From Opitutus sp. GAS368 (GTDB lineage Bacteria > Verrucomicrobiota > Verrucomicrobiia > Opitutales > UBA953), in assembly GCA_943330755.2 (NCBI GenBank), contig CALQIY020000002.1, forward strand, positions 1 through 54,217: a stretch of 54,217 bases of DNA, in the 5' to 3' direction. The notes under the pieces were generated by a model. The model was not told the origin of the DNA and did not search any database. It worked only from the letters and a program-made list of their open reading frames with translations. This document shows, in pieces, positions 625 to 3,332 of the stretch (its first letter is position 1; the number at the start of each line of letters is the position of its first letter). The position numbers were made by a program, and so were the translations under genes.

Positions 625-700
625 GGCCTGATAGCTCAGTTGGTAGAGCAGACGCCTGAAGAGCGTCGTGTCGTTGGTTCGATTCCGACTCAGGCCACCA
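625..700 (+). tRNA. tRNA-Phe (GAA), CCA encoded
   Basis: GGCCTGA/TCAGGCC acceptor, anticodon stem-loop GACGC-CTGAAGA-GCGTC, TTCGATT T-loop, 3' ACCA. Confidence 0.96.
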
Positions 701-708
701 CTTCCAAC

Positions 709-745
709 CGGCCCGCTTGATGCCCTCAAGCGGGCCGAACCTTTT
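709..745 (+). terminator. Intrinsic terminator downstream of tRNA-Phe (possibly bidirectional)
   Basis: Perfect 12-bp stem CGGCCCGCTTGA/TCAAGCGGGCCG with 5-nt loop then CCTTTT. Confidence 0.75.
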
Positions 746-1497
746 CAGCGGTTGAACAGCAGGCGCATCATCGAGAAGCGCTCCCCGTGGTCGAGGGGTG
801 GGGGCGGCGTCTCGTCTTTGCCGAACTCGACCAAGGTGATGACCTTCTCGTCTTCGCGGGTCTTTTCGGCCTTGATCGTTTTTTCCGTCCACTTCGCTTG
901 GACGACGCCGAAGGGCGTTGCGTCGTCGCGCCAGACCGTGCCGCGGAGGATGATGGTCTGCTTCTTCACGAACGGAGGGTCGATGATGGTGTAGGACTCC
1001 ATCTTGAGCCGGCGGCATTGGAAGGTTTTCGTGCCGAGCGTCAGAGGTTCGGCGGCGGCGGTCTCGGGTTCAAGGGTGTTGGTGGTTTTGTAGCCGGCCT
1101 TCTCGGCGATGGAGGCGACGTCTTCGGGCAGCATGTGCCAGGGGCCCTTGATGGGCTCGGAGAACAGGATCTCCACGGAGGATTCCAGGAGCTTGTTCGC
1201 GCCTTCGCGGCTCAGGTCTTTCGGCACCAAGAAGCGTAAAGCCGCTTTATGGCTGGAACCTAACCACGCCACCGGTTCGACGCTGAGCCAAACGTGCGGC
1301 TTGTCTTTGACCATGCCTCCGTCGCGGATGGAGAGTTTGATGGTCGATGGTTCCCCGGCCGGTTCCGGGGAGACTTTCTTGATTTGATAGGTGGCCCAGG
1401 ACCCCGGGGCGGGGAGTTTTTCCGCGAAAATATTCCATTGGGCATGGGCACAAGCCGTGCTCCCAAGGAGGGCGAGGAGGGCGAGCAAGTTTCGCAT
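745..1497 (-). CDS. Hypothetical secreted protein
   Basis: 250-aa ORF, signal peptide MRNLLALLALLGSTACAHAQ; no family recognised. Confidence 0.8.
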   Translation of the reverse strand: MRNLLALLALLGSTACAHAQWNIFAEKLPAPGSWATYQIKKVSPEPAGEPSTIKLSIRDGGMVKDKPHVWLSVEPVAWLGSSHKAALRFLVPKDLSREGANKLLESSVEILFSEPIKGPWHMLPEDVASIAEKAGYKTTNTLEPETAAAEPLTLGTKTFQCRRLKMESYTIIDPPFVKKQTIILRGTVWRDDATPFGVVQAKWTEKTIKAEKTREDEKVITLVEFGKDETPPPPLDHGERFSMMRLLFNR

Positions 1498-1603
1498 ATC
1501 GGCATTTTTTGGCTAAAATCATGGTTTTGGCGAGCCGAGTCTGTGCCGCCCTGCCTTTGCCTTTGACTCAACGGGGGGATTTCCTTGGACTCAGGTTTCT
1601 CCC

Positions 1604-1687
1604 ATGGAATACCCGGCACAGTCTCAGACCCTTCCCCTCGTGGGCGGTCGTGCCATTATCCCTGCGATTATCATCATCGGGCTCTAA
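1604..1687 (+). CDS. Ile-rich leader peptide MEYPAQSQTLPLVGGRAIIPAIIIIGL (27 aa), candidate attenuation leader of citramalate synthase
   Basis: Short ORF ending 88 nt before the cimA ATG; 6 Ile among its last 10 residues (ATT ATC..ATT ATC ATC ATC); followed by mutually exclusive hairpins. Confidence 0.75.
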   Translation: MEYPAQSQTLPLVGGRAIIPAIIIIGL

Positions 1688-1745
1688 GCCCGCTGAACGG
1701 CTCGCCTCTGGCGACTTCCCGTTCCGCGGCTGCCGGAACGGCGAC
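1679..1745 (+). promoter_or_regulatory. Candidate attenuator: antiterminator (1690-1700 with 1719-1729) versus terminator-like hairpin (1719-1726 with 1734-1741)
   Basis: CCGCTGAACGG pairs with CCGTTCCGCGG at 10/11 positions; CCGTTCCG pairs perfectly with CGGAACGG (8 bp, 7-nt loop); both share 1719-1726. No T-tract follows. Confidence 0.65.
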
Positions 1746-1775
1746 CTCCCCTACATTTCTCCTCCCCCCACCACT

Positions 1776-3332
1776 ATGGCACGAAAAATCGAAATCTACG
1801 ACACCACCCTCCGCGACGGCTCGCAGGGTCTGGGGATTCATTTCTCGGTCGCCGACAAGCTGCGCGTCGCCCAGGAACTCGAGCGCTTCGGGGTGACCTA
1901 CATCGAAGGCGGCTGGCCGGGTTCCAACCCGCGCGACATCGAATTCTTCCACGAAGCCCGCAAGCTGAAGTTCAAGCATGCCAAACTCGCGGCTTTCGGC
2001 TCCACCCGCAAGAAGGGGATCCGCGCCGCCGAAGACGCCCAGGTCAAAGGCCTCCTCGAGGTGGAGACCCCGGTCGTCACCATCTACGGCAAGACCTCGG
2101 CCCTGCATGTCCGGGAAGTCCTCCGCTGTACGCCCGAGGAAAACCTGGCGATGATCGCCGATACGGTGGCCTTCCTGAAGTCCCATGGCCGCGAGGTCGT
2201 CTATGATTGCGAACACGCGATCGATGGCTGGAAGGAAGACCCCGCCTACGCCGCGGCCTGTTTCCGCGCCGCCGCGGAAGCCGGTGCCTCGCGCATCGTC
2301 CTCTGCGACACCAATGGCGGTTCGCTGCCCGATGAAGTGGCCGAAGCCACCCGCCATGCCCGGGCCGCCGTCAAGGCCGCCATCGGCATCCACACCCACG
2401 ACGACTCCGGCTTGGCCCTCGCCAATGCCTTGGCTTCGTTGGACGCGGGCGCGGTCCATGTGCAGGGCACGATGAACGGCATCGGCGAGCGCACGGGCAA
2501 TTGCGACCTCACGGCCGTCATCCCGGTCGCCCAGATCAAGCGCGGCTGGAGCTGCGTCCCGGCGGCTTCGCTCAAGCGCCTCACCGCGCTTTCGCGTTTC
2601 GTCGATGGCGTCACCAACCAGGCCCCCGATCCGCGTCGTCCCTGGGTCGGCGCCGCCGCGTTCGCCCACAAGGGCGGCACGCACGTCGACGCCATCCGCA
2701 AGTTTTCCGCCGCCTACGAGCACGTCGACCCGTCCGCCGTCGGCAACGCCCGCGACGTCCTCGTCAGCGACCAGTCAGGGCGCAGCAACCTCCTCCTCAA
2801 GGCCGCCGAGCTCGGGATCCAACTCGACAAGGATGCGCCGTCGACGCGCGTCGCGTTGGATGAACTCAAGAAACTCGAGCACAAGGGCTGGAGCTTCGAG
2901 GATGCCGATGCCTCGCTCGCCTTGCTGCTCCGCAGCCACATGGGCAAGTCGGCGGTCGTGCCTTTCGAGGTCGTGAAGTACCATATCTCCGTGCAGGGCG
3001 GACTCAAGGATGCCAGTTGCGAAGCCACGGTGCGGGTGCGCATCGATGGCAAGGAGTCCCTCACCGTCGCCGAAGGCGAAGGCCCGGTGCATGCCTTGGA
3101 CCAAGCGTTGCGCGAAGCCCTCGTGAAGGCTTTCCCGAAACTGAAGAAGGTGCACCTCGCCGACTACAAGGTCCGGGTGCTCGCTGGCCAGGATGGCACC
3201 TCGGCGCAGACCCGCGTCGTCGTCCGTTCCACCGACGGCACTCGCTCCTGGGGTACGGTCGGCGTCAGCGCCAACCTCGTCGAGGCGTCCTTGCGGGCCA
3301 TCGTCGACGGTTACGCTTACGCTTTGTCCTGA
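1776..3332 (+). CDS. cimA: Citramalate synthase (HMGL-like domain plus LeuA allosteric C-terminal domain)
   Basis: ARKIEIYDTTLRDGSQGLGIHFSVADKLRVAQELERFGVTYIEGGWPGSNPRD and C-terminal LeuA-dimer-like domain; start moved from 1509 to ATG 1776 because upstream codons are leader region. Confidence 0.93.
   Translation: MARKIEIYDTTLRDGSQGLGIHFSVADKLRVAQELERFGVTYIEGGWPGSNPRDIEFFHEARKLKFKHAKLAAFGSTRKKGIRAAEDAQVKGLLEVETPVVTIYGKTSALHVREVLRCTPEENLAMIADTVAFLKSHGREVVYDCEHAIDGWKEDPAYAAACFRAAAEAGASRIVLCDTNGGSLPDEVAEATRHARAAVKAAIGIHTHDDSGLALANALASLDAGAVHVQGTMNGIGERTGNCDLTAVIPVAQIKRGWSCVPAASLKRLTALSRFVDGVTNQAPDPRRPWVGAAAFAHKGGTHVDAIRKFSAAYEHVDPSAVGNARDVLVSDQSGRSNLLLKAAELGIQLDKDAPSTRVALDELKKLEHKGWSFEDADASLALLLRSHMGKSAVVPFEVVKYHISVQGGLKDASCEATVRVRIDGKESLTVAEGEGPVHALDQALREALVKAFPKLKKVHLADYKVRVLAGQDGTSAQTRVVVRSTDGTRSWGTVGVSANLVEASLRAIVDGYAYALS

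Follow-up and report, generated by a model that had tools for sequence, protein, structure and literature searches.

The question raised by this locus is whether a short, isoleucine-rich open reading frame (ORF) upstream of a citramalate synthase gene (cimA) senses isoleucine for a ribosome-mediated attenuator, and by which step it would control cimA. The window (the whole 54,217-nt stretch of DNA that was analyzed) lies on a contig from an Opitutales (Verrucomicrobiota) metagenome assembly of 2.32 Mb, which is 81% complete; the close relatives are freshwater Opitutae MAGs. A first-pass annotation of the window had described a leader ORF with six Ile codons and two mutually exclusive RNA helices, and had proposed attenuation of cimA. 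The ORF is present exactly as described, base for base, and the sequences, coordinates and complementarity of the helices (10/11 and 8/8) are all correct. The downstream gene is indeed citramalate synthase, with a TIGR00977 score above the cutoff (Table 1). All conservation counts refer to 42 genus members with enough sequence upstream of cimA. It was concluded that the region is, with good probability, an isoleucine attenuator that acts in cis on cimA by way of the ribosome, in which the leader very probably serves as sensor and switch.

CimA is the Ile-specific entry enzyme of the pyruvate route, and the ilv enzymes are common to valine and leucine. Control on cimA is sensible for that reason. 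Threonine deaminase was searched for with a single model (TIGR01127), and none of the 55 genus genomes gave a hit above the cutoff. Only three PALP-fold proteins are found in the 81% complete source assembly. cimA is the first gene of the only visible isoleucine pathway in these freshwater Opitutales. The gene behind the leader belongs to the pathway of the amino acid that would be sensed, and no ilvA scores over the cutoff. Ile/Leu/Val leaders were seen neither before the leuA-type paralogue nor before ilvB in the plus-strand loci (those other than the minus-strand L157, L158, L160 and L164). This places the control on the Ile-specific gene.

The leader starts with ATG in all 42 genus members and stops at the homologous place in all of them, and the identity of the stop codon varies (TAA in 25, TGA in 13 and TAG in 4). 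Leader lengths are 27, 29 or 30 codons, with indels in threes only. Each distinct leader carries three to six Ile codons; counted from the leader end, codons -6, -4 and -3 specify Ile in 39/42, with ATT and ATC interchanged. Retention of the ORF and its Ile codons in relatives, proposed as a check in the first-pass annotation, is borne out in 42/42. When the 330-nt stretch before cimA was dinucleotide-shuffled 3000 times, no short ORF with at least five Ile in eight codons was produced, and two shuffles reached four; the real leader has six. The run of four Ile codons (ATHATHATHATH) occurs at three sites in the 2.32-Mb assembly, both strands counted. cimA is preceded by a short ORF with clustered codons for the product amino acid, and from these sequence features we infer that it is translated. 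A codon-position test of the leader gave no significant third-position bias (P = 0.48). The case for coding is therefore made by the start, the stop, the frame and the Ile codons, with no contribution from synonymous substitutions. In a sister genus (g5), cimA is found at 82% identity, but neither the leader nor a similar region lies upstream of it, which makes the leader dispensable there. A 250-aa ORF without NCBIfam match (745-1497, minus strand) is divergent from cimA in the window, and in the sister genus its start is apparently close to cimA.

Table 1. Features of the cimA leader region (window coordinates; conservation values for 42 genus members)
Feature	Position	Strand	Evidence
Putative -35 hexamer TTGACT	1563..1568	+	TTGACTC (1563-1569) invariant in 42/42 members
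Putative leader peptide ORF, 27 codons, MEYPAQSQTLPLVGGRAIIPAIIIIGL, Ile at codons 18, 19, 22-25	1604..1687	+	Conserved 42/42
Helix 1:2, CGGGC-TCTAA-GCCCG, stop codon in loop	1678..1692	+	99.4% of cells paired
Segment 2 of antiterminator-type helix 2:3, CCGCTGAACGG	1690..1700	+	10/11 pairing with 1719-1729; 98.8% of cells paired
Apical hairpin TCGCC-TCT-GGCGA within helix 2:3	1702..1714	+	Compensatory changes at 5 pairs
Segment 3, CCGTTCCGCGG, common to helices 2:3 and 3:4	1719..1729	+	Identity 0.987
Segment 4, CGGAACGG; helix 3:4 with 1719-1726, terminator-type, no U-tract	1734..1741	+	95.6% of cells paired
C-rich, G-poor unstructured tail before cimA	1742..1775	+	Genus mean C 53%, G 3%; 21-49 nt
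cimA, (R)-citramalate synthase, putative regulated gene	1776..3332	+	TIGR00977 649 bits, cutoff 450

The distance from TTGACTC to the leader ATG is 37 to 42 nt in the 42 members. The -10 element is weak, and a consensus scan did not select the putative TTGACT promoter. With the -35 element at this position, the transcript would start near 1598, the 5' leader would be very short, and the leader ATG probably lies only a few nucleotides from the transcript start.

Helix 1:2, which was absent from the first-pass annotation, completes a classical four-segment attenuator (1:2, 2:3 and 3:4). It carries a C-G to G-C double change in two relatives (L075 and L077). Segment 2 has an identity of 0.935 against 0.46 to 0.58 in the spacer and tail, and segment 3 is the most conserved transcribed segment. 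In the 42-sequence alignment, 96.4% of cells are paired for the structure made of 1:2, the apical hairpin and 3:4, and 97.5% for the alternative made of 2:3 and the apical hairpin. Covariation was judged against a null of 500 AliSim alignments simulated on the inferred tree, after a manual one-column shift of rows L038, L040 and L080 within the apical loop. The covariation check suggested in the first-pass annotation was passed by the apical hairpin, which covaries beyond the phylogenetic null (five pairs with double changes; 2/500 simulations reach that). The signal for the added helix 1:2 is weak (32/500), and helices 2:3 and 3:4 show no covariation against the 500 simulations. These two helices are near-invariant and thus uninformative for covariation, which leaves complementarity and conservation as their support. 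The changes in helix 3:4 are solely U-A to U-G and C-G to U-G. Segment 3 pairs with two partners and would be held constant for this reason.

The effect of ribosome position was modeled by constrained folding, in which the ribosome covers up to 11 nt past the first base of the A-site codon (the rule is that of E. coli). With the A site on the Ile codons, the mean probability of 2:3 over the 42 species is 0.78 to 0.92 and that of 3:4 is 0.04 to 0.16. With the A site on the stop codon, the mean probability of 3:4 is 0.76 and that of 2:3 is 0.00, and 38/42 species favor 3:4. The change-over occurs after the last Ile codon and before the stop is reached. Folding thus predicts that helices 2:3 and 3:4 are placed so that the position of the ribosome selects between them, and the choice between mutually exclusive helices that had been claimed is reproduced by the model in most species. 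Unconstrained leader folds are split between states. The minimum free energy of the whole leader is unremarkable (z = -1.3), so the case rests on conservation and not on folding energy.

The following sequence of events is proposed. RNA polymerase would transcribe a leader whose ORF carries three to six Ile codons near its stop. Under a shortage of charged tRNA-Ile, the ribosome would stall on the Ile codons and cover segment 1, leaving segment 2 free; helix 2:3 would then form with its apical hairpin and cimA would be expressed. When isoleucine is plentiful, the ribosome would reach the stop and cover segment 2, helix 3:4 would form and cimA expression would be lowered. Helix 3:4 most likely acts by ending or blocking transcription ahead of cimA, and with no U-tract present Rho or a NusG-type factor may have to assist the release, or 3:4 may be a weak U-less terminator. 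Besides leader translation, we infer the response to isoleucine, the direction of regulation and the output step. The attenuation mechanism put forward in the first-pass annotation is largely supported by the conservation and the constrained folding, with two corrections: helix 1:2 is added and masking of the ribosome binding site is disfavored.

Other readings of the region were weighed against this one. That it is no attenuator at all, the ORF being a chance ORF or part of a CimA N-terminal extension, is hardly credible. The cimA frame is open back to a TTG at 1509 in the source genome, as such an extension would need; in relatives the frame often ends a few to about 30 codons from the ATG (open frames of 521 to 549 aa), and a conserved extension from this TTG was rejected. 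A chance ORF is opposed by the shuffles, which do not give the Ile run, and both forms are opposed by conservation of the leader in 42 species. It is also quite improbable that the region is a riboswitch or an RNA bound by a protein, with a short ORF that plays no part. Such an RNA would agree with the strong nucleotide-level conservation of the structured part and with the missing third-position bias, but codons, stop identity and length (in threes) vary around a retained start, stop position and Ile codons, the predicted switch occurs after the last Ile codon and ahead of the stop, and no Rfam family, T-box riboswitch included, matches at the leader.

A third reading keeps the same sensor and changes the output: the 3:4 state would hide the cimA start and act on translation. 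The first-pass annotation had noted that no T-tract follows the second hairpin, and this is borne out: only zero to three T are found in the next 8 nt in all 42 members, so the 3:4 hairpin is not directly followed by the U-rich tract of an attenuator with an intrinsic terminator. The missing U-tract speaks for a translational output, as does the lack of an obvious Shine-Dalgarno sequence before cimA in the window. Against it, the gap between the hairpin and the cimA ATG varies from 21 to 49 nt across the genus, and the predicted accessibility of positions -15 to +5 is alike in the two states (0.766 vs. 0.757). Both points disfavor masking of the ribosome binding site by 3:4, and we regard the translational output as unlikely. 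The earlier suggestion that the switch acts through translation or Rho is thus weakened in its masking form, and for the attenuator of transcription that we prefer, an output by Rho, by U-less termination or by pausing is possible. The tRNA terminators in the same genome mostly have four to seven T, i.e., U-tract terminators exist there. In the window (625-740), a perfect GGCCCGCTTGA..TCAAGCGGGCC hairpin lies behind a tRNA-Phe gene, and GAACC displaces its T run; this genome may thus contain terminators with an offset U tract. The composition of the tail before cimA is unusual: among 20 other genes of the window, called roughly, none has at least 50% C or at most 6% G in the 37 nt before its start. 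The tail (1742-1775) and its homologues may be rut-like, although at 21-49 nt they are short for Rho, or may be kept unstructured for initiation without a Shine-Dalgarno sequence.

A covariance model of the element, run on 388 genomes of the phylum, found genus members only and one chance match (G444/L123), which reads as a gene-end terminator and was rejected. Plasmids and viral contigs gave no match to the element. Short ORFs with at least five Ile in eight codons precede cimA at 6 of 119 other loci vs. 0.07 expected from shuffles. The six loci span about five clades, namely the f14 family (same class), an Opitutales relative (L181), f11 (two close genomes, L145 and L150), Sumerlaeota (MAG L082) and Acidobacteria (MAG L110). 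U-tract terminators are found after the leader in L110, L181 and L192. In the Acidobacteria MAG (L110:1838-1980), the region before cimA contains a 23-aa Ile-rich leader (MAQRTITHIGIAIIIITGVSPGG) and, after it, a strong hairpin with T7. The fold test of this locus gave the terminator only (P34 of 0.92 at every ribosome position), so a switch is unsupported there at equilibrium. In L181 (genome G347), the end of an Ile-rich ORF (LPIIAAIITIARSPGQ) and a CCCCG...CGGGG hairpin with T6 lie upstream of cimA; judged from its sequence the element is possibly an attenuator, with an ambiguous start codon.

In the f14 family (L275-L304), every one of the 29 loci whose upstream sequence is complete carries an invariant CGAATTA ahead of cimA, in most of them inside a short Ile-containing ORF (...IRI..GL.CA, also written ...IRI..GLLCA). 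The stop codon lies in the loop of two nested stems, CGGRCTCC/GGAGTCCG and CTGCG/CGCAG, and compensatory CGGGTTCC/GGAACCCG changes are found in L296, L301 and L302. No Rfam match was found for this leader, and it looks like a separate design.

We put forward only tentatively, as a possibility somewhat short of even chances, the joint proposal that the 3:4 hairpin and the C-rich, G-poor tail, with Rho or another factor, stop transcription without an intrinsic terminator, and that control of cimA by Ile codons, with unrelated folds, originated or was retained independently in several phyla. A U-tract-free output, if true, would depart from the standard model in a way that can be tested, and the recurrence in other clades makes cimA leaders a place for comparing independently built attenuators.

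Leader-peptide attenuation is textbook knowledge for the ilv, leu, trp and his operons, mostly of proteobacteria and actinobacteria, and the leader of E. coli ilvGMEDA (ilvL) is the classical ribosome-mediated transcription attenuator. The cimA leader resembles ilvL in its ORF with branched-chain codons, in its segments 1 to 4 with 1:2, 2:3 and 3:4 pairing, and in the predicted masking of segment 2 by a ribosome at the stop. It differs from ilvL in that it precedes cimA and not ilv genes, its regulatory codons are mainly Ile, its 3:4 hairpin has no U-tract, and its ATG probably lies a few nucleotides from the transcript start. No report of leader-peptide or attenuator control of cimA was found among open-licence PMC papers, which is weak evidence of novelty, and cimA, Opitut- and Verrucomicrob- terms are absent from PMC8632094 and PMC11109978; attenuator logic on cimA in Verrucomicrobiota is apparently unreported in those open-licence papers. 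The Corynebacterium ilvB-II motif / ilvBNC attenuator has a short upstream ORF (uORF) rich in branched-chain codons with a proposed antiterminator and terminator (PMC10272879, PMC11857589), and the terminator stem is described as intrinsic-type (PMC11109978). The cimA leader shares with it the uORF with branched-chain codons before a biosynthetic gene and the proposed antiterminator and terminator; gene, phylum and RNA sequence differ, as does the intrinsic-type stem. Breaker and colleagues described uORF candidates such as uORFC-8-2 before cysS (PMC8632094), and the cimA leader resembles these in that its uORF is restricted to a lineage and its codons match the pathway of the gene behind it. 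What the cimA leader would add to these systems is a known attenuator logic placed, in Verrucomicrobiota, on the gene for the Ile-specific entry enzyme of the pyruvate route.
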